The notes below the pieces were generated by a model, which saw only the letters and a program-made list of their open reading frames with translations, was not told the origin of the DNA and searched no databases. A DNA stretch of 64,000 bases. Origin: Pyrenula massariospora (taxonomy: Eukaryota; Ascomycota; Eurotiomycetes; Pyrenulales; Pyrenulaceae). Below, piece by piece: positions 24,773 to 61,282 of this stretch. The stretch spans positions 174,017 to 238,016 of the forward strand of contig JAGFMI010000030.1 of the NCBI GenBank assembly GCA_021030905.1, in the 5' to 3' direction. Numbering within the stretch: the first letter of the stretch is position 1; every line of letters starts with the position of its first letter. The translations under genes and the position numbers were made by a program.

Positions 24773-27700
24773 TCATCGTCTGTTGGCGGTCTTGGCCGCC
24801 CATCCACTAGCTGACTGTGCAGGAGGGTCCTTCCCAAACGCGTCGTCTCGGAGACTACGTTGAATAGCAATGGTTGCATCATCGCGTCCTCTTGTGCTCT
24901 TCATGTAGTCCTTAAATTTCTTCGACATGGCGACGACTTGTTCAAAATGCTCCTCTTTGATCATAGGCATCTCGCCCTTCGCTTCGTACACAGCAAGCGC
25001 AACTGCCGTTTGAAACGCTAAAACGGGTGTCAGTATATTCGATGCCGCACTCATTTCTGTTACAGTTTTCATGTTCTGCGGACGTGGTTAATACAGTCAG
25101 GTCGAGACTTACCATTTCGTATCTCTCGCCCATTCCATTCGAGCTCTCTTACATCGTTTGATCCGCAAACATACTGCTCCGCGCGATACTCGTATCGTAT
25201 CTCTTGGCCATTTTCTTCGCGATCCTCTTCGAGCTTCTTGAATGTGTTCTTCCAGATCTTAATACGAGAATCCTGATTCAATGGCTCGTAGGCGATCTGA
25301 ATATGAATTCGTGATAGAATGGCTTCGTCGAAGGAGCCAACCCGATTGGTGGTGAGAAACATGATGCCTTGAAAATATTCGATTGTGCGTAAGAAGACTT
25401 GGTGTTTGAATGATTAGAACAACACATGTGCAACGACCTCGCGGTGTGACCGAAGCATACCTGAAACAGTACCATTGCGCTCTATTTCCCTCTTTTCCCT
25501 TGATTCTAGGTAAACATCTGCCTCATCCAAGAGTACTATTGCATCCCAATCCTGTGCATTGGCAAAAAAGGTTAGAAGATTTTCCTCAAGCTTCATGGGA
25601 TTGTGGCCAAGGTCAGCGGCTGTTATGCTGAGCAAGGGTCTACGAGTGAATTCCGCCACAGACTCTACGTTGGTTAGTAAAGATGAGCCGAGGTGCAGGT
25701 TGAAGGAGTTCTCTGACCAGCAGTCATTGTCTTCCCAGTGCCAGGGGGTCCATGCAGTAAAATGATCTGTCCTTCACCCTTTCCGCGGATGGCATCGGCA
25801 AAGAAAGGTTTGATCCCAGAGCTGGCATTCATGTATGCCTCGCAAATGGCTTTGATCATGAATTTGCTGCTCTCTGGATTAATCACCAACTTGTCAATGG
25901 CCTTCACATTGATTCGAGGATCTGAAATGTCATCGATATCGAGAAGATCTGGGAATACAAGTCAGCTCTCTTAGCGAGTAAAGGCAGTTTGAATTACCGT
26001 AATTTCGGTCCTTTAGTATGTAGGCTGTTACCGTTCCAGCACAGAGTTTATATTGATGGTCGCTCAATTCTTCTTTTTCCGATGGGCGAATCCTGTCATA
26101 AGAGGCAAAAGTCACAGGTGCATAATGTGACTGAGTAGCATAATGCTGCTCACATGTCTCGCACTGGCAGGCTGCGGCTCGCGCGTGTAATCCAGGTTGT
26201 ATCTTATGATCTGGTTCCATAGATTCCCAAGAATCAAGGAAATACCTTGCGTCCGCCATGATTTTCTCTTTGTCCGCGACTACGACGATCCTTTGACGCT
26301 CATGCTAAGCTGGTGGTGAGGACATGACTCTAAAAGATTTAGGATAACGGTAGAAGGGTGATCGACTTACTTTGCGGGCTCGCCTCAGGGACCATCCTGT
26401 AAATTCTTGGTATGTCGACTTTTTGGTAAACCTGAAATATTTCTTGCCTCGCTGTATTAGACCTCTTTCTATGCCCGATGATCCGTCCTTATCCCGGTGC
26501 ACGTACGCAGGGTAAATGGGTAAAGTCTGGAGATCGCGGGCGCCTTCCCATGGCGGGATTTGTAAGACGCGCAACTTCCGACCGATATATTGGCCGTCGA
26601 ATCGTAGGTTCCATACGTGTATTGTGTAGGCTATGGCTCGCTTGTCAATGACGCCGCCCGTGACTGACTCGACAACGTAGAGCCCAAGTTTACCATTCTC
26701 ACGGATGAACACGTCAGATCCTGGCTTTAAAATTTGCCAAAATGAGTTGAAAGTGATCGTTGGGGCATTGCCGCCGATAGGCCCCTCAGCATCTTCAGTG
26801 TGCAATCTTTCCTTCTCCGTAAGCCACTCTAACAAGTAATCAATGTGAAGGTCGCATTTGACATTATATTCGGTGCTGTGTCTTTTTCGTGACTCATTTG
26901 CTTCGTCTTTGAGCTGACTCAATTCGTCGCGATGAAGATATAAGTCCTCAAAGGGGGCTGGAAAAATACCTTGAACCAAACAGTCATTCCCGCTTGCTGG
27001 CGATTGCGAAGTGTATTTCACCACGCTTCTCAGAGCATTCAATAGCTCAGGCGAGTTGATTGTAAGAGTTTTCCTCCTAATTTTGTCAGCGGGATCAAGC
27101 GTTTCAGGTTTCGGATCCATTTTCTCTGCTCCATCTTCGTCTTCCAGGTCGTTAGGCCGAATAGCCCCAAAGCGAACAATTTCAGTGGTCTCTTGAAGCA
27201 CTGGACGTATTTGCCACATTCTCGGTATAAATACATTTGGGTGAGTGTAAAATTTTTGGTAGCGGAAGGACTCAAGATTAGAATCAAAGTAATGTTTTTC
27301 AAATACTTGAACGCTGTATCCGATCTTCACCTCAGCGGGAGGCTCTGCGTTCTTCTGATCCGACAGATCTTTGGATTCGTTCTTTCGCGGTGGCTTACCC
27401 ACAACATCTTCTGGAGGTTCTGCGGCCCATGGGACGGTAAAGGAAATCGAGACTTCCCAGTTCGGTTTGGCAAGGTCCTCCCAAGCCGTTGAGCTAACGA
27501 TGCAACCATCTTCATCCTTCAACTCGAAATCGCCTGCTTCGATAATTATCGTCGCAGCTGGATGATGTGCAAAGGCTCCTTTTATCTGACTTTGCATTCC
27601 CTAAGGCATATCAGCAGCTCGACTTTAGTGCAGAGATCGCAGTAACCAACCTTCCAAGTCTTGCAAAGTTTCCACGGAAAAGACCATTTCTTCTCTGGCG

Positions 27701-29766: not shown

Positions 29767-31945
29767 ATGGACATTGCTACCGTTCGACGTACTGACGAAT
29801 TAGAAGGACAATCCATCGTTCGTAGGTTCACTGATGAGCTTGAGCCGACAAGCGATGTCGAGCATGCTACCAAGGAGGCTCAGGCTCAACAAGACGAGGA
29901 TGAAGAGGACATACATAGAGCTCGCGTAGCCACTTTGCAGAGAAGGGTGACAGAAAATCGACGAGGCAGCGACACAACTTCCGAAAAGATTGATCGTAAA
30001 TATCAGGCCCAGAGTGTCTGGGATGAGCTCGACCATGAGCGGCGTCGGCTGGAAGAAACGCTCGATAAATTCCCGGCTGCGACCGAAGACTTGGCTACAC
30101 AGCCAAAATCTCGAATATTGGGCTCGTCTACGAAACATAAAGCAAATCAACACAGGAAGCGTGACAAGGCCTATGACTTCTCGGACATCACTAAGGTGGT
30201 CGCAAGCCTGGATAAAGACTTCCAAGAGAAACACTCAAAGGTAACCCAAAAGATTCGATGACACATTTTCATATGAGCTAGACAAATCCTGATTATTCTG
30301 CTTTTACCGATAGGCGTTCAAAAATTTCGAGAAAATGTGCTCCATGCTCAACTCGCACAGAGCTTTACTAGCTATCCTACCTTCGCAGAGTATCTACGCT
30401 TCCGTTTTCTGTGGCAGCATTTCGACTTTGATAAAGGTAAGTTGTACCTATGGCCGATGAAATGTCTTCATTGGTCTAAGTGACGGGAAATATTAGGCTG
30501 CTGCCAACCATAAAGAAACTTCGGAGACACTATCTAGGGCACTCGCAGATATTTCGGACAAAACCACCATCTGCGAGCGGCTGGTGAGGATTTTTGGCAC
30601 AGAAGAAATGAAGTGGAGACTAGCCGGGGTATATTCCAAGGTCTTTGGCTTCTTTCGAGAGAGCATGGAGTGGTATCTGGGTTCTCGCCTATCGCGATTC
30701 AGGAAAAGCTTCGATGAAAGTGTCAGTCAAAAGTTTAAAGACGTGGCATCAGAGATTAAGGACAAGATTGAAAACATGCATAAGGTGGGCAGTGTAGAGG
30801 ACATTGCGGTGAATCGTGCAACGCTTGAGGAAGTGTCTTCTCTCAAGGCGCAATTCTCATTGTTCGGTGCCGAGCTTTCCGATCTTCGGAATCTCGTGTC
30901 GCAGACACGTCAACAACGACTCTTCCCAACAGAATTGCGGATCGACGTTGGCCAGAATATGATGCGAATGTTGATGTCTGATTACAGTGAAGCCCGATCG
31001 CGCCTGAGATGCGGCACCTTGGAAACCCTATATGCTAACGAGCTACAAGCGATAGCTGAATCATCGTCGAATTGGGCCTATGACGAAGGCCAAGTCGAAG
31101 ATTCCAGTGGCAGAAGCAGTCCGAGAAGCCAGGTCCAGCAGCTTCGGTTCCTGAATAAGAAGCTACTAAATAGATCAGAAGCTCTAAACCAAATCGGGCG
31201 CCTGAAAGACACCATCGTCGGCACTGACGGATTGGAGTTTCTCAGTGATCCCAGCAACAGGCTCGCAGACGCTGAAGTGATATTTGCATTACAGCGTTGG
31301 GTGAGCGATCCCGACTTCCAAGTATTGTGGATTTCGACCCCCTTGGAGTTGCGACCGGATGACAGCGCGAGAGCAGCGGCTTTAGGACCAATTGCAGCAG
31401 CAATCGAGCTAGGAGTGCCATTTATTGCTCACTTCTGTGACAAGCCGCGGAGTTCCACAACATTGGGTGTCGACAGAGATCGATATGGATTGCTCGACCT
31501 ATGTCATAACCTGATATTGCAGCTGTTGCAATTCAACGTTCCAGATGACAAAGCTGAACTCGATCAGCAACAATTAGACAGATTAGATGGAAGCGAAGAA
31601 TCATGGGATATGGTACTCTACCTTCTTTACGACCTTTTGCACACCACCCCTTCTTGTCTGTACTGTATCATTCACAACTTGAATAATTTAGAAGGTGGAG
31701 AGGGAACTTCATGGTGCAGAGAGCTCGCCGAAATGCTCATTCATCATCAGAGAGAATCAGATGGTGGCTTTAGGATTTTGTTCACCACATCAGGTTCCTC
31801 ACGGATATTAATGGATTTGGTTTCGCATAAAAACCATGTCAACTCTTCAGAATCCACTCGAGAACTTGAGCGTCATGGGGAAATCGTCGATCTCCATCTG
31901 CCGGACAATGGCGAGCATGGGATCGACCAGAACTCAAGGTTCTAA
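29767..31945 (+). CDS. DUF7708 STAND-like protein with degenerate NTPase
   Basis: Exons 29767-30240, 30314-30436 and 30497-31945 give 681 residues in phase. The N-terminal 150 residues are charged. A DUF7708-type helical domain follows at about 150-290 (MCSMLNSHRALLAILPSQSI, VYSKVFGFFRESMEWYL). The domain is common at the N-terminus of fungal NLR-like STAND proteins, which act in non-self recognition and regulated cell death. Then comes a NACHT-like segment (about 400-660) with family landmarks ALQRWVSDPDFQVLWISTP, IPFIAHFCDKPRSS-like text, LDGSEESWDMVLYLLYDLL and FRILFTTSGSSRILMD. Where Walker A should follow VLWIST there is PLELRPDDS, with no GxxxxGK[ST]. The protein also stops soon after this segment, with no repeat domain. 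The coding sequence itself shows no frameshift, so it looks like a maintained non-ATP-binding relative. Confidence 0.72.
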
Positions 31946-49260: not shown

Positions 49261-50113
49261 GCTGATGACAAATGCACATCGACTCGGTGTGTCACTGATT
49301 ATTTGAATTTTGTGAGGCCGCCTTGCCGCTATTTTCCTTTAGGTCGGGAACTTGGTGTGGGGAACGCGTCGCGTTTGGCAGACGCTACTCGAAGGTTTCT
49401 CAGAGAGCGTCTGATTCGGCGAGACAGACCCTGCCGTAACGATTTGGAGCAGAGTATTTACGGCTTCACATTATCTGGCCGAGACCCAATTATATCTCAG
49501 CTTTCTCCTTCGATCTATTCAATGTATCATTGGTGAGATTACTCGCTCAAATTTCACAACCTTCAGTTCCGTTCAAAGGCTTTCACTTTTTCAGCGACTA
49601 CCTTAGCTACCTATGGTGGTGTATTCGGTATTTCCACAGCGAGCTAATTTCTGCGGCTGAATAACTGGCTGAATAAACCAAGCTCAAGCTCTTCAACAGC
49701 TTCTGAGATTAATACGATCTCGTCTTTCAAAGCCCCTCGTGGCAAAAACAAAACCACAGGCAAGTTTCCTTCGTCATTAATCATTTACTATCGTTATGTA
49801 TACAACTTTTCTGCCATACCAGTTCCTTAAAATCTAATTATGGTTGGCTTCATTGTTACGAGATCCCATCGACACGCATGTTTCTTGCTGTTTCACCTTT
49901 CTAAGTTTTCCTCGTTGCGCCTGTATCTATTGTAACTCTGCTCGGCGAGCTGGAAACTAAGTAGACGGCGTGAATCGCTACTATCGACTTATTCTCTCAG
50001 GGGAGAATAAGGAGTGAACAAGGGTTCGTATTCGTGGACGACTACTCGCAAGGCGTAGGCTCAAATTGTTACTGAGTTCTAGTGTGGAGCACGCCAGGGT
50101 TAGTGTGGCAACC
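49261..50113. other. Intergenic region
   Basis: About 850 bp of divergent upstream DNA between RCC1 and the NLR locus. No supported gene. Confidence 0.4.
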
Positions 50114-53100
50114 ATGGACGGTCTAAGCACCGCTCTCACCATCTGGAATGTGATTCAAACCACAAAAATCGTGATCAACTTTCTCAAGGGGATCAAAGAT
50201 GCAGATGAAGACCGGCCGAAACTCATTCGTGAGCTTGAAACAACATCAAAATTACTTGAGAATATCCGTGGTGTCGCAAACAGATATCCAGGTATTCTGC
50301 AGGATCTTGAGAACAGCTCGTTCGACGAGTACCAACACCTTGTATCCGAACTTCGTGGCAAAGCTGAAAGTTCACGTGGCATTCGAGACCTTGCAAAGAA
50401 GCTTCGATTTGTTTCAGGAAAGTCCGATGTCCAAGAGCTCTTTGGCGTTCTCGAGCGCTATAAGAGCAACTTCGCCCTCTGCCTTACCACGGAAAGTCTG
50501 CAAGTGCACCAACTTAAATTTCAAGTCTTTAATGCATGTCATAATTGCTTATCAACTACAGTCAGGTTTTGCTAGAGAACAAAACAACGTTGGAAGACAT
50601 GAGCTCCAAATTTAAATCTGTCAAACTTGACGCCAGTCAGATGGACGAACTTAGAAGCTTGCTATCGACATCCCTGCGAACCAGCCGACCAGCGCAAGAA
50701 CCATCTGCGCCTATGATGGTACCTTTTGACAGAGATCTTGAAGACCTTGTGAACGGAAATACGTATCTCGACCGCATTTCCCATCTGTTCGACAAGTGTA
50801 AGAGAGTTGCTCTGTTCGGTTTAGGTGGAATTGGGTAAGTAACTTTGTAGATGTCTTGAACAACTAACCAACTTTAGAAAGAAAATCATGACTTGCCGTT
50901 GACGTCAACATTGATATTCTGGATCTACGCTGCAGACGAGTCACATTGCTTTGGCGCTTACAGAAAGATCTTACCGATCATACCGAAGGATTTTCAGACG
51001 ACATATGCGACTGGTGTGCAGAATTACAGAGGTCAACGAACTCAACACCTGTTATTGATCAAAGAGTGGCTTGAATCCGAGGAGAGTGGCAGCTGGCTGC
51101 TGATCGTCGATAATGCTGATGACTACGAAACGTTCGTCCGCAATAAGAGTGTGATAGAGCTCTTATCAACAAGAGGTAACGGACGATTGTTGATGACTTC
51201 TCGTAGCAAAGAGGTTGCACTGAGGCTCGTTGGATCTGAAAGGAACTTGATCCAGGTAGGGTTCTTCTCTAGGGAAGAGGCTATCTCGCTTTTTCGCAAG
51301 CTCCTACTAGGCGACGATGCATCTGATAAGCTGCTTGAAGAGCTTATTCAAGCTCTTGACTTCCTTCCCCTTGCAATTAAACAAGCTGCGGCCTAAATCT
51401 CTGCCACTTCAATATCCGTGACAGAATATCTGCGAATGTTCCGTGACGAAAGCAATCAACAAAAGCTCCTATCCGAAGACTTCACCGATCCGTCACGTGA
51501 TAACTCAGACGCTCGAAACGCAGTCATTTTAACATGGCAAGTGTCACTCCAGCAGTTTCAATTACGGAGCCTGTCAGCAGCAGATTTGATGGCCTTAATG
51601 TCAGTATTGAGCCGAGAATCTATCCACAAATCCCTTTTGAGAGCTTTCTGGACCAATGACTCGGGACTGAAAAGAGATATTGGAATTTTGAGGTCCTTCT
51701 CTTTGATCTCCCCAAGTGGTATTGGAAAAGATGATTTCACAATGCATCGGCTAGTTCAGATGACCATTCGTGTATGGCTGCAGAAGCATGATCAGCTTGA
51801 TCAATGGGAGACAAAAGCACTCCAAATACTGAACCTTCTGTTTAGAAGAGCCTTTCAGACCGAGGATTGGACCAATTGTCAAATCATATATCCACACGCT
51901 CGACTACTCTCCAAAGGTAATTATGCAAATGCCGTTACAAAAACATCATGCGAAGAATTGGCAAAATCTATCCACTCGTACGATAATCCTCCCGTAGACC
52001 GACTTGCTTCGCAGACGAGTACCTCGATATACGAATCCACTCAGGCCCTGAAGATTGCACCTTCGTCTACAGACTGGCTACTGTCCCACCCTACGTTCCA
52101 GAGGTGGTCCCAAAATGAGTTCAATGTACTTCTTCTGGTAGGACGACCTGGATCAGGCAAGACTGTCTTATGGTAAGCGTAGTAACTTCTTGCAGCACTG
52201 AGGATATGCTCAATTCTCGTTACAGCACTCACTTGACAGCTTCTTTGATACCTGAAGATAGCTTAACAGTAAGCTTCTTCTTCTCATTCCGCAACAATTC
52301 CAGCAATCCGATGGCTGACATACTGCGACACTTGATTTTCCAAGCAAGCTCCGTAAAAGATAGCTTGACCGGCTCTGTTCGGCAAATTACCCTCGCGAAA
52401 AGAAAGGACGTCGTTAGCTATTCTCAGCTCATTTCAACTCTCAAGGACACGATAGACAAGCTCGACAAACCTGTCTATGTCATTGTTGATGCAGTCGACG
52501 AATGCTCCCAATCTGCACAACAAAACGTCTACGATGCGCTATTACAGCTTTCGGAAGAATTTAGAGACAAGCGCTGCCGCTGTTCTATTACTAGCCGGCC
52601 CGATGCATGTTTCTTGGCAGTTCATAACAGAGATAAGAGGACATCTATCGATTTGAACGTGGAGAACATCTCGGCACTGAACCAATTTATGGAAGACGGA
52701 CTTGATAGCGGCAGGCTGGCGAGCCTTCCACAGGAGACGAAGCAAGAATCGACTAAGACAATAATCGAGAGTGGAAGGTAGGGAAACATCCTACGAAGCT
52801 CATTGGCAGAAATTGTTACTGAAATCTGATGCGGCAGCCGCCGGATTTATTTCTATAGCAAAATCTGTCACTGAGCCTCACCATGTTTCGAGATGCTTCG
52901 ACTAACATTTTGTGCAAGCTTCTTCTCAGCCCGCCTTATGATTGAAGGCAACATAGAGCATCGGGCTGCTGAGGTTATTGATGCCATGTTCAAGCGAGAC
53001 GCGTCCCTAGAAACCTTAAAATCAGGTTACTTGCAAGCTTTGGAACACATCGTGGAGCCTTGGGGGATATCTGTCTTACGATGGACTCTGTTCTCTCTCC

Positions 53101-53990
53101 GCCCGTTGATGCTGAAAGAGATGACCGAGGCAGCGGAACTTACTGAAATGGCAAGGATAGCGAATCTCAGAGAGAAGTCAGTTGTACTAGAAATACGTGG
53201 AAGGGGGTCAGATGTTTCGAAAGCAACGTCCAATCTTGTAAATGCTGACCCGAATGACGAGAACTCGGCTGTGCGCTTCCTCCATCCTTCAGTCAAAGAG
53301 CTCTTCGAGACATGCCAGGCCGAAATTCCTGAGAAGCTCCGCTTTGATCTGAACGAATATCATCAAATGATATTTGTGTGCTGTCTGGACGTGTTGTTGA
53401 GTGCGGCAACCTCAAAGCCTGATGTCAGCAAAGTTGAGGCTCAGGGAAAGAAACCATTACGGGATCTCAGCGAGGAGGGTGCTGAGAGTAGGCTGGTAAC
53501 GAACGATGTCGCTGAGACTCGCCTCATATCCTCGCTCCTGACTTATGCTACTGAGTACTCGATGGCATATTTGAAGGAATACATGAAGACAAAAGTGCCG
53601 TCCCCAGCGATGGTGTCGCTCTTGGAGAAATTCTTCGACCCCCGGAGTGCGGGAGCTTTCCACAACTGGTTACAGATTTTTGACCCTGCACATGCGGAAA
53701 ATAAGACGCTGGCAGAGTTCAACGGGGATTTGGACAAGATGAGATACTATATCAAGCTCCTTGGCTTACCTCTTGATATAGGAAATTTCCTGGAGAGCCC
53801 ATGCTATGGCTCAGATATTAAACTACGAGGTATTGACGCCCCTGAAAGCCCTCAAACAATGCTGCAAGAGAGACATGTCGACGAAAATACTGGCTTACGT
53901 CCTCCCCAAGAAAGGAGAAGGAGCAGGTCTATTGACAAAATGCTTTCGAAAATTACAGGTAAAATGAAAGGCAGGTTCATGGATTCTTAA
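50114..53990 (+). pseudogene. Decayed NLR-type STAND gene, NB-ARC joined to NACHT
   Basis: The first exon (50114-50503) encodes a helical N-terminal domain starting MDGLSTALTIWNVIQTTKIV. A second exon (50566-50834) leads to VALFGLGGIG, the start of an NB-ARC P-loop. After the expected intron the rest of the P-loop helix is missing, and the frame is wrong until LPLTSTLIFWIYAADES. Later NB-ARC landmarks survive: LLIVDNADDYETF, GRLLMTSRSKEV and LDFLPLAIKQAAA. A TAA stop at 51394-51396 follows in the same frame that continues ISATSISVTEYLRMF. From about 51950 the protein changes to a second NTPase with an intact Walker A (VGRPGSGKTVL), an intron at about 52173-52229, a Walker B-like VYVIVDAVDECS, then CRCSITSRPDA. 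A stop at about 52781 and a frame change precede the helical C-terminus ending at 53990. Such proteins mediate fungal non-self recognition, but this copy cannot make one full product. Confidence 0.75.
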
Positions 53991-54164: not shown

Positions 54165-55186
54165 CTATGTGTAAACGAGAGCATTCTCTTGCCTCCAAGA
54201 TCTTTCTGCCGGCGTCAAGTCACTCGCATGCCTTGCCAATAGCATATCCAAAGCCGCCTTCTCAATCACGATCCTCCCTGTCTCCAGCAAATCTTTAACA
54301 TCGACCTCCTCCACATCCCTCAACATCCCACTATCCCCAACCTCCTCCATCACTCTCCTTAGCGCCCTCCTCTCTTGCTTCACCTTTATATCCTCTCCAC
54401 GTAAATTCCCAGTCGTAACAAGCGTGCTCCTTCCCGAATTCTTACCCCACCCATTCTCCTTAAAAACGTTCCACAACCACCTTGCCCCAACTTGCTTCTC
54501 AACTCCCATATAACCATCGATCACCACTAGCTCACCCTTCTTAAACCTATAACTCAGCGCCGTCCTCCACGCCAAATCATAAATCTTCTTTGGCAGGCCA
54601 GTCGAAAAGTCTCTTGGATGGGGCCCATGAGCTACACCCCCGCCTCTGCGAATTGGAGATTTTTTGTCCCCTACCCGTGCCCTTCCTAGTCCTTTTTGTG
54701 GCCCGAGCTTTCTACCCGAGCCGTGAACTTCGGATCGCCATTTTGTGGATGCAGTGCCCTGTCGCGCCATGTCGCCTTCGTAGATGACAGCTCGGTGTAG
54801 GATGTCACGGCGGAGCGGGAGAGACAGGTGGCTGGTAGGGTACTTGGCGTAGCGAAGAGGCTCGAGGACAGGCCAAGAATAGACGGTTGTCGTGACACGC
54901 GGAGGGGACCACTTGACGACTGGGGTAGAAGTTGGGGGATGTGTTAGAGAGAGAACGCTGCGAAGGTCTGAGGGAGATGAGGAACGAGATGGTAGGTCAG
55001 AAACCGTGGCTAAGGAGCGAGAGAGGCGTGGCGCAAGACATTGCTGGCAAAGACAGTCAGATGGTATACAACAAGCTGGTTGAGTGGGAATGAATTGAGC
55101 TTTACCGTGAGTAGGTCTGTGATCTGCAGCTGGCTAGAGCTTCTTACAAGCCTCCTTAAAGAGCTAGGAGAGGATGTGCCAACCAT
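54165..55186 (-). CDS. YML6: Mitochondrial large ribosomal subunit protein uL4m
   Basis: Exons 55186-55106 and 55043-54165 give 319 residues in phase (GTAAAG donor, TGCCAG acceptor). uL4m is a core structural protein of the mitochondrial large ribosomal subunit that contacts 23S-like rRNA and lines the exit tunnel. The N-terminal 80 residues (MVGTSSPSSLRRLVRSSSQL) are basic and Ser-rich, as expected for a mitochondrial presequence. The conserved body follows: LPLRRDILHRAVIYEGD, ARQGTASTKWRSEVHGSGRK, PQKGLGRARVGDKKSPIRRG and GGVAHGPHPRDFS. Neither exon has a break. It is transcribed away from mL38, another large-subunit protein, with only 189 bp between the start codons. Confidence 0.93.
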
Positions 55187-55375: not shown

Positions 55376-56851
55376 ATGTCGAGGGCCGGAGTGCCAGCAA
55401 ATCTCTTTCTGCATCGTTCTAGATTAAAGCTGTACCAATACTGTATTGAAGATGGCTCACACCGCCGGAAATTTTCTTCGACGCCTCCTAGTTCCGAAGT
55501 TCAACTTGAATCACATTCGGGGCCTCCTAGAGAACTCGACCCTCTCACAACCTTTAAACCAAAGAATGAACGAAAGCTAATGGAACTTGGAAAACAGCCA
55601 ATCGCTTCACGCAGACGGCGTGCGTTGCTGGCTGGGAAAGCGGAGGGTATTCCGTTCGAGCAGCTTCCATACCAATGCTTTCAAGAAGCTCGGAAGATTC
55701 TTTTGGCAGACCGAGAAGAGAAGCTCCAAAAGATACAGATCATGCGAGAAAGAATAGTGCGGCTGAAAGAGCAGGATCCTGCAATCTCAGGAGGCGAGAT
55801 TCGCAAGAAACACCGGCTTGATAGCATGCGGCGCGAGCTAGAGGACCTGAAAATCAAAGCGGACGTCAATGATCCAATCGTAAAGAAGAAGTTCGAAGAT
55901 GGACAAGGTGAAGATACACTCTAAATCATTGCGACAGCCGACTGATCTATCCCAGGAAATATGAACAAGCCAATATACAGATACCTTGCCAATCGAAAAT
56001 GGAGAGAATATAGACGGCCTGTCCTGATGCAAAGGATACAGCAAATGAATGTGGACCCTGACGTTCTGCCCGGGATTGACCCAATCATGGATATTACACT
56101 CTTCTTTGGCAAAAAGAGCACCACTCCTGGTGACTTTGTGACATCGACCGTGAGCGAGAAAGCACCTCGACTACAAGCTCAGCTCTTCGAGCAAGGCGAA
56201 AAGCTCTGCACAATTGCGGTCGTCGATTCAGATGTTCCAGACGTAGAAACAGATGGATTCAAGTATAGATGCCATTTCTTAGCCTGCAACATACCGATAT
56301 CTCCATTAAATCCACATCTGGACCTCCAGAAACTGTCTGCTTTGGGAGTTGCAAGCGATTCGTCCATCTCCACCACTCCTATTCCAAGCGAATTTGCTGC
56401 TTCATCGGCTCATTCGATGAACGATGCCCCTTCCTCGTCGGCGTCAACAGAGGTAAAACAAAGTCTCGAAGACCACGCTCCTGAAACTCCGTCCTCAACA
56501 ACATCTTCACCGTTTGACCCGGCAACGCTTCTACCATGGTTACCACCTTATGCCCAGAAAGGCTCTCCATACCATCGCCTCTCCATCTTCATTCTCCAGC
56601 AAAAAGATAATACGCCCATGGACGCCAACGTCGTCAAGAAGCGAATCGGCCGTGAGGGGTTCAAATTGGTGTCTTTCCGTGACAGACACCTTCTTAAGGC
56701 CATTGGCGTGCATTTGTTTCGAACGAAATTTGACGAGGGCATGGACAGAGTGATGGAGAGGATCGGTGCGCCGGGATCAGATATAGAGTTTAGGCGGAAG
56801 AAGGTTGAACCACTGCCGTACAAGAGAAGGAACCCTTCCACATTCAGATAG
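55376..56851 (+). CDS. MRPL35: Mitochondrial large ribosomal subunit protein mL38
   Basis: Exons 55376-55907 and 55956-56851 give 475 residues in phase. mL38 (yeast Mrpl35) is a mitochondrion-specific subunit in the central protuberance and carries a PEBP fold. The N-terminus MSRAGVPANLFLHRSRLKLY is a plausible presequence, followed by KFSSTPPSS at the likely cleavage region. Conserved segments are KPIYRYLANRKWREYRRPVL, MQRIQQMNVDPDVLPGIDP, CHFLACNIPISPLNP and the PEBP-type HRLSIFILQQ. A Ser-rich linker of about 70 residues splits the fold between residues 330 and 400, an insertion typical of filamentous fungi. The gene converges on the IMP1-type protease, with 169 bp between the two stops. 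Confidence 0.9.
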
Positions 56852-59447: not shown

Positions 59448-61282
59448 CTAGGCCCCAAGCTTCCGCGCCATTTTTGCCACTTCATCCACCAATCTCTCCC
59501 GTTCAAAAACTTTCTTCTTGCCCTTTTCTCGAATCACGTCCGAAGTCTCCACCACTCGCAATACCTGCACCACTTCTCCGCTCGGTTGCACCAAGTATAC
59601 TAGCATACCCAGCGCTCTTAGCATCCCGTTCAGTCCCTCAGCACTCTCCTCTTCGTTCTTGATCGCTTCCACCAGTGCAGCAACGAGCTCGACCTGCTCC
59701 GCTTCGGGCAAAGCTTCGGAATTGGAGTTGATCCGAGCTTTGTGATTGTAGAGAGCAAGGTTGTAAATGAGAGCTGCGGCGAGGTGGCGGATGGTGGATT
59801 TGGTACCTAGGAGAGATGATTTGGCTAGCGTGAGAATTCTGTCATTGAGTGGCCCGGCTGCAACAAGTAATGGAGGATATAATGGCGACGCGAACGTGTT
59901 GCAAAGCAATTGAAGGGTAACAACGTGGAGATTGTGTGGTATTGCCGTAGTTGTGGGTATTAGTTTCATAACCAGAGAGTGATGTGGCTGAGATGCGAAG
60001 AAGCCGCTGATGCGAGGGTCTGCAAAAGCAGCCCGTAGGAGATCAACGATCGCAAATGTTGCGGCAGAGTCAGACGAAAGGTCAATAGAGTGGATCATAT
60101 CACTGAATGCTTGTAAATTAGGGACATGCGCCTCGGCTGCCGACGACTTGGTCCGGGTTTGGATGAAATCCACTAAGGACTTGAAAGATGGATTTGACTG
60201 AATGGTCTCGGGAACTTTGGCAAAAAGCTTATCCAGTGGAGGCGACTTGGCGAACAAAGCATATTCCGAATTTGGATGGGAGAACGTTGGCAGATACATG
60301 TTCTTGTGCGGATGTTCTGGCCACGCCATTTGGATCAACAACTTTACATTGCCGTTTAACTTTGAGGGATCTGCTCCACTCCATTCATTCTCCTTCTCAC
60401 CCTTCAGGAACGTCATGAATGTGGGCGTAACATGGACGTTGTAAGCTGCAATAAGATCTCGCTCTGCGTAATTGAGGTCAATTTTTATGAGCGTACACTT
60501 CGCACCAGCTTCCTCAGCAAGAGAGTCAAAGGTGGGATAGACAATCTTGCATGGGCCACAGGTGGACGAAGTAAAGAAGATGACAGCGCAGGAGGAGAGC
60601 GCCCCTTCGAGGAGGTTGCTCGCTTCGGCAAGCGTGGTAATGTTGTGAACTTTCCCCAGCTCCATGGCATGCCCGTTTGTATATTTATTAGCATTCCCAG
60701 CAGGCCCCACATTTTGGTTTGGGGGCTTGCCATTGATAGGCAAAACGTTGGACTTGGCTGGTGTAACATCATCACCACCTTGAGTTATACCGCGCATCGC
60801 CTGGTCTATATGCGGTCTAAGCATCTTTCCGAATGGCGTATCTAGAACCTTTTGCGGCAAGTCGCGAATATGGACTGGTATTTCTTTGCCCGTCAGGAAC
60901 ATCGATAGATCTTGAGTGAAGTTGTTGCAATTATGGAGGAAGAGATCGTACGACTCTGCTGTGTAAATCTCCGCCAGAGACTCCATGTACTCTTCTATGA
61001 TCTGCTGAGGAATCTGTGTCTCGCCTTGCTTGATAACCTGCATCGGTCGGCCATGATGCGTTGTTCCGGGAACTTTGCGCTGGACCCCGGATCCGAAGAA
61101 GTATTCAACACCACCAAAGACCAAAGAGGTATGGTAGATTGCGTCCAGCTGAATGCCTGTCAGAGGTAGAGACCACTGTCGAGCAAGACCCTAAAAATTC
61201 AATCAGGTTGAGGAACATTCGTCTGGAGGACTGATAGCAATAATACCTGAGAAAGATCGTAAACGTAGAGCTCAACTTCCAT
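59448..61282 (-). CDS. PPPDE peptidase-thioredoxin-PUL domain protein
   Basis: Exons 61282-61247 and 61190-59448 give 592 residues in phase. Residues 1-140 form a PPPDE (DeSI-type) peptidase, a papain-like fold that cleaves SUMO or ubiquitin conjugates. Its catalytic pair is His32 in IYHTSLVFGG and Cys100 in FLHNCNNFTQD. A thioredoxin domain follows at about 190-300 with the redox motif CGPC at 223-226. From about 340 to the end is a PUL-type armadillo domain (AFADPRISGFFASQPHHSLV, HLAAALIYNLALYNH), which in Ufd3/PLAA binds Cdc48. The combination suggests a Cdc48-linked deconjugating enzyme with redox sensitivity; that reading is inference. The three-domain layout is, from memory, a recurring fungal architecture. 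The gene is intact and starts 363 bp from the divergent EF-hand gene. Confidence 0.9.

Follow-up and report, generated by a model that had tools for sequence, protein, structure and literature searches.

Domain content and gene model of the locus

The window, by which we mean the whole stretch of 64,000 nucleotides analysed (G000:C23:174017-238016, from a 37.8-Mb genome of 33 contigs), carries on its forward strand at 50114-53990 a region whose domain order is HeLo-like/PigL_N, NB-ARC, DUF7779-type winged helix, NPHP3_N/NACHT and a tail (Table 1). Its coding requires four introns, whose splice sites were inferred from the sequence, and the gene model is set out in comparison with P0001, the best-matching protein, from Pyrenula ochraceoflavens.

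Table 1. Features of the NLR region and its neighbours in window coordinates
Feature	Position	Strand	Remarks
Exon 1, most of HeLo-like/PigL_N domain; MDG start as in P0001	50114..50499	+	PF17111
Intron 1, GC-AG, inferred	50500..50561	+	GCAAGT...CTACAG; spliced frame tracks P0001 ungapped
Exon 2, HeLo-like end and NB-ARC start up to GLGGIG	50562..50834	+	
Intron 2, inside NB-ARC Walker A, inferred	50835..50881	+	GTAAGT...CTAAC...AAAG
Exon 3, remainder of NB-ARC with winged helix, connector and NACHT Walker A; bears the lesions	50882..52172	+	
Lesion, in-frame TGA right after GLGGIGKS	50889..50891	+	
Lesion, net frame-breaking loss of about 29 nt relative to P0001, somewhere within the stretch	50892..50913	+	GKS-to-IFW distance compared with P0001
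Lesion, in-frame TAA in NB-ARC domain	51394..51396	+	
NB-ARC winged-helix region (DUF7779, under cut-off), MHRLVQ motif	51556..51786	+	
Connector between the two NTPases	51925..52071	+	Ungapped, 23/49 identical to P0001 584-632
NACHT Walker A, GRPGSGKT	52141..52164	+	
Intron 3, inferred	52173..52225	+	GTAAGC...TTACAG; frame kept
Exon 4, NPHP3_N/NACHT core	52226..52777	+	PF24883, 56.4 bits on frame 52119-52778
NACHT Walker B, VYVIVDAVDE	52473..52502	+	
Intron 4, inferred	52778..52918	+	GTAGGG...CTAAC...GCAAG; frame kept
Exon 5, helical region after NACHT, then C-terminus; no repeats found	52919..53990	+	
Ribosomal_L4 gene, presumably mitochondrial ribosomal protein uL4m	54165..55133	-	PF00573, 144.1 bits
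mL38 gene, spliced over inferred intron 55908-55955	55376..56851	+	Best match Q9227_005530

An N-terminal effector domain is present, as PF17111, a family named HeLo-like in a passage of PMC9815663, matched the frame 50018-50572 at 31 bits (cut-off 27.2). The NB-ARC profile, run on window piece 50878-51393 by itself, reached 22.8 bits, just under its cut-off of 23.5, and PF25000 (DUF7779) reached 21.5 bits on the piece 51397-51921, under its cut-off of 27. PF24883 (NPHP3_N; cut-off 24.8 bits) matched two pieces, at 30.9 bits on 51397-52172 and again on the frame covering exon 4. The tail (52875-53987) matched no Pfam family above cut-off and no TPR, ankyrin, WD40 or HEAT repeats; likewise, no TPR, ankyrin or WD40 repeats were found by Pfam behind either NTPase, in the window or among the 25 of 35 families listed for P0001.

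The stretch 51397-52172 is a single open frame that leads from the NB-ARC tail and winged helix, carrying WQVSLQQF and MHRLVQMTIRVWLQKHD, to the start of the second NTPase with its P-loop VGRPGSGKTVL, and none of 20,000 composition-keeping shuffles left its 258 codons open. The earlier note had reported just this passage from an NB-ARC tail into a second NTPase with an intact P-loop, and the profile match within the frame bears it out. Its description of one unbroken frame holds for 51397-52172, which starts right after the TAA, but not for 50114-53990 with its four introns and three lesions. Once spliced, 51397-53990 is open down to its stop (799 residues), and we dropped a reading in which the NACHT half was frameshifted after 52172 and 52778, as two introns yield one open frame that tracks P0001. 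A reading with a deleted NB-ARC Walker A was dropped as well, since comparison with the paralogue L024 suggests that the acceptor lies four bases downstream, where GKS is retained and the TGA comes next. In the NB-ARC relatives L023 and L024 of the same genome, GG|K is apparently likewise interrupted by an intron.

Elsewhere in the window, a single ORF at 59451-61190 on the reverse strand combines PPPDE peptidase, thioredoxin and PUL domains, and another at 26308-27600 (also reverse) combines ULD_2 and DUF7025, with no AAA domain matched inside it. On the forward strand, an ORF without an NTPase match at 30497-31942 contains DUF7708 (PF24809, 64 bits), a family that is also listed for the fungal NACHT relative P0044; this ORF may be a further NLR remnant or may encode a domain that stands alone.

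An intact relative and an apparently shared locus

P0001 (Q9227_005532) is a hypothetical protein of 1123 residues from a metagenome-assembled genome (MAG) of the lichen fungus P. ochraceoflavens (Eurotiomycetes, Pyrenulales), and is intact as predicted, with the order HeLo-like region, NB-ARC, winged helix, connector and NACHT. It was the best of the 12 proteins found in a read-through search, with the query 94% covered at 44% identity (E 1e-288); the remaining 11 covered just 10-32% of it. Its Pfam matches include NB-ARC (50.2 bits against a cut-off of 23.5, best stretch 213-411), NPHP3_N (108.3 bits, 630-799) and NACHT (56.6 bits); the 25 families listed for P0001, out of 35, do not include PF17111, although it was matched in the window. 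The NB-ARC Walker A GLGGIGKS is found in both P0001 and the spliced window copy, the NACHT Walker A of P0001 is GAPGSGKTT, and its Walker B, VFVLVDALDE, fits the pattern hhhhD[GAS]hDE given in a passage of PMC12258605, as does that of the window copy. Walker A and B are retained in the NACHT half of both proteins and in the NB-ARC of P0001.

Over their whole length the two are identical at 527 of 1085 aligned residues (49%), with 92 of 174 residues shared in the HeLo-like region (P0001 1-176), 99 of 153 against P0001 407-560, and, in exon 5, 71 of 180 (P0001 806-990) and 54 of 131 (991-1123). Across the connector the alignment is ungapped at 47% identity, with a score of 117 compared to at most 45 in 2000 shuffles. 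Among 87 relatives P0001 alone matched both halves, and its connector (561-632) had no match at E 1e-3 among the other 86. In these protein searches the candidates scored were the 7992, 7993 and 7995 with the most words in common, and more proteins of this kind, which we call twins, may lie beyond them. The sole intact member known is a predicted gene of a MAG. In a second Pyrenula MAG (P0130, seen in the mL38 search) the read-through search gave no twin match, which is consistent with absence, an incomplete MAG or a split gene model. Searching the genome of the window for the twin gave at least 29 matches (38 of 62 candidates scored), four of which are the gene itself while the other 25 lie to one side of the join; within that scope no second twin copy was found.

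Structure prediction for P0001 alone gave a mean pLDDT of 37.6. One alignment (A1) placed NACHT-only relatives onto the NB-ARC half; with an alignment made without them (A2; P0001, four window pieces and eight NB-ARC relatives) the mean rose to 54.2, residues 607-1123 (the NACHT half) remaining almost all under 50. For the first half the prediction shows a complete NB-ARC core of NB-HD-WHD fold, like that of CED-4, Apaf-1 and the plant resistosomes. The PDB, searched by sequence, returned weak matches (E 0.0017 to 0.23) to AfsR and NRC1 only, all on the NB-ARC part.

The neighbourhood of the gene also appears to be shared. The best match to the mL38 of the window is P0088 (Q9227_005530), from the same MAG as P0001, with 60% identity over 100% among the best 120 of 720 matches listed. 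The locus tags of the two P. ochraceoflavens proteins are two apart and both are listed on a contig of 251381 bases, on which basis the window NLR and P0001 apparently share one locus near mL38. In the window uL4m sits between mL38 and the NLR, and the intervening tag, 005531, would fit as a uL4m orthologue. In an mL38 tree of 17 rows, the window, P0092 and P0088 cluster at 99/97, and the window and P0088 proteins agree at 61% of 466 aligned positions; judged by these sequences, the window fungus is related to P. ochraceoflavens and is a different species. Taken together with the 49% identity of the NLRs, this value indicates that the receptor diverged just somewhat faster than the mitoribosomal protein. 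P0092 (ENA, contig of 29649 bases) comes from a close relative, its mL38 being 79% identical to that of the window over 268 aligned positions, and its contig could hold the same NLR locus.

Age of the join and state of the window copy

We are confident that what lies here is an orthologue, now decaying, of a twin-STAND NLR gene that was joined already in the common ancestor with P. ochraceoflavens and kept near mL38, a confidence that covers identity and decay and excludes mechanism. Because P0001 shares the order, the ungapped connector and the apparent neighbourhood, the join is neither local nor an artefact; it must be ancestral, the fusion or insertion having happened once, before the two lineages parted. 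As to which of the two it was, an NB-ARC/winged-helix block may have been inserted into a HeLo-like-NACHT NLR in place of an end-to-end fusion, an origin compatible with our explanation that we regard as conceivable without favouring it. The NACHT relatives P0014 and P0018 do carry PF17111 in a precomputed list, but the HeLo-like part of P0001 matched just P0013 among 87 proteins, and weakly (28%), with no match to P0014 or P0018.

The window copy lacks the one intact coding frame of a functional NLR, being interrupted by the TGA, the frame-breaking loss and the TAA. All three lesions are confined to the NB-ARC part, and the 3' NACHT part is open after splicing of two inferred introns. We infer that the damage to the NB-ARC part is recent, because the NB half is still the better conserved one relative to P0001 (318 of 561 residues identical, against 209 of 524 in the NACHT half). 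With this part broken in the window genome, production of the whole protein is no longer possible.

The gene might be split instead of dead, 50114-50891 still being used for a HeLo-like protein of 222 residues and 51436-53990, from its first ATG at 51436, for a separate NACHT protein of at most 786. The two stretches are open after splicing and flank lesions that fall within about 0.5 kb of NB-ARC, and a separate HeLo-like protein partnering an NLR has a precedent in HELLP with PNT1 (in a passage of PMC12881547); with so few lesions (three), their clustering is nonetheless weak evidence, and we consider such a split improbable. Somewhat less probable again is that the living strain has an intact gene and that sequencing or haplotype errors account for the lesions. 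These do number just three, with the remainder, including the whole 3' part, open once the inferred introns are removed, yet errors would not typically produce two in-frame stops together with a loss of about 29 nt, and a second copy was not found in the assembly (match counts being lower bounds). Further NLR-like matches with internal stops occur in the genome, at L017/L029 (G000:C1:541127-541648; three stops), G000:C6:54962-55339 (two) and L019/L027 (G000:C2:711383-712021; two), and NLR relics may be frequent in it, the stops having been counted on unspliced sequence.

The earlier note was right that NB-ARC is followed by NACHT in one chain, and P0001 has the same order. It made no mention of the damage to this copy. 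It had ascribed the arrangement to two NLR genes having been joined illegitimately near 51920-52060, and had named beforehand, as what would speak against this, that both halves prove to be parts of one conserved NLR family of that order; P0001 of P. ochraceoflavens supplies this. The halves do match different NTPase families and a second twin copy was not found in this genome, but given the connector identity an independent fusion at the identical residue is very unlikely, and with order, connector and apparently a neighbouring gene in common we find a local joining scarcely credible. A misassembly linking two loci, in favour of which stands nothing except that the window ends at the end of contig C23, can be set aside, as the join lies inside one open exon and recurs in P0001, from another genome.

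A putative twin-STAND receptor and its known relatives

Our best reading is of the relic of a rare, vertically retained twin-STAND NLR with a NACHT module in the usual place of repeats. According to part of PMC12881547, HeLo and HeLo-like domains act in membrane targeting and cell death in fungi. We tentatively propose, at rather less than even confidence, a mechanism with a HeLo-like output, an NB-ARC switch and a NACHT sensor or lock: the HeLo-like four-helix domain would be a membrane-acting output, NB-ARC would oligomerise as in CED-4 and the resistosomes, and the NACHT module, in the usual TPR position, would serve as a built-in sensor or lock, so that the twin chain might amount to a sensor-plus-executor pair fused into one protein. 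A bolder and more doubtful proposal is that of a distinct fungal receptor lineage with two complete, unlike STAND switches, in which NACHT would stand in for the repeat sensor and act as the gate of a HeLo-like/NB-ARC executor; contrary to the birth-and-death rule the gene would long have stayed at one locus, and in the window fungus it would be splitting into HeLo-like and NACHT pieces. A conserved complete NB-ARC with a complete NACHT and no repeats would lend itself naturally to testing whether one STAND module can sense for another, and retention near a housekeeping gene speaks against fast NLR turnover.

Published surveys provide the background. Fungal NLRs are described, in a passage of PMC4986451, as having one NOD and swappable ends and as following birth-and-death evolution, and 4 of 5,616 fungal sequences were matched there by both queries. 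In the portion of PMC12258605 on Sordariales, 97% of HeLo-like NLRs have T-NACHT, and 55 of 4,613 NLRs were flagged as both, each with a single ambiguous NACHT domain. In the accessible portions of the open-licence literature we found no description of a twin NB-ARC and NACHT fungal protein, and the passages of papers with the phrase 'NACHT and NB-ARC domains' describe none. As far as these portions go, two-NBS receptors are known in plants, and the fungal surveys speak of one NB domain per protein.

The nearest relative, P0001, is like the window copy in domain order, connector, MDG start and apparent locus, the window copy differing in its three lesions. The fungal NB-ARC-TPR NLRs (L023, L024, P0005, P0006 and P0008) share the NB-ARC and, in four of the five, the DUF7779-type winged helix (the 25 families listed for P0006, out of 40, do not include DUF7779); a scan of L024 gave TPR and DUF7779 with no NB-ARC family at 1e-3, its BLAST match notwithstanding. 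These proteins go on into TPRs, whereas the twin goes on into NACHT, and L023 and L024, which read from NB-ARC/DUF7779 into TPRs in this very genome, agree with the expectation of the earlier note that TPRs should follow NB-ARC. The fungal NACHT-ankyrin NLRs (L025 and L026, NACHT relatives in this genome that read into ankyrins, and most of P0013-P0087) share NPHP3_N/NACHT and the post-NACHT region; they have a single NTPase, mostly followed by ankyrin and in some by WD40 repeats, whereas the twin has NB-ARC ahead and no repeats. The plant two-NBS NLRs BPH18, BPH26 and Pib likewise have two nucleotide-binding domains per chain, both of plant type, the first partial and without most of the ARC (in a passage of PMC5041133). 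In contrast, the twin combines a complete NB-ARC with a NACHT of another STAND family and has no LRR among the families listed, and so does not belong to the plant CC-NBS-NBS-LRR class. A possible division of labour between the NTPase modules is reminiscent, by analogy only, of the plant sensor/helper NLR pairs described in part of PMC12258605, which are two genes, whereas the twin is one chain.
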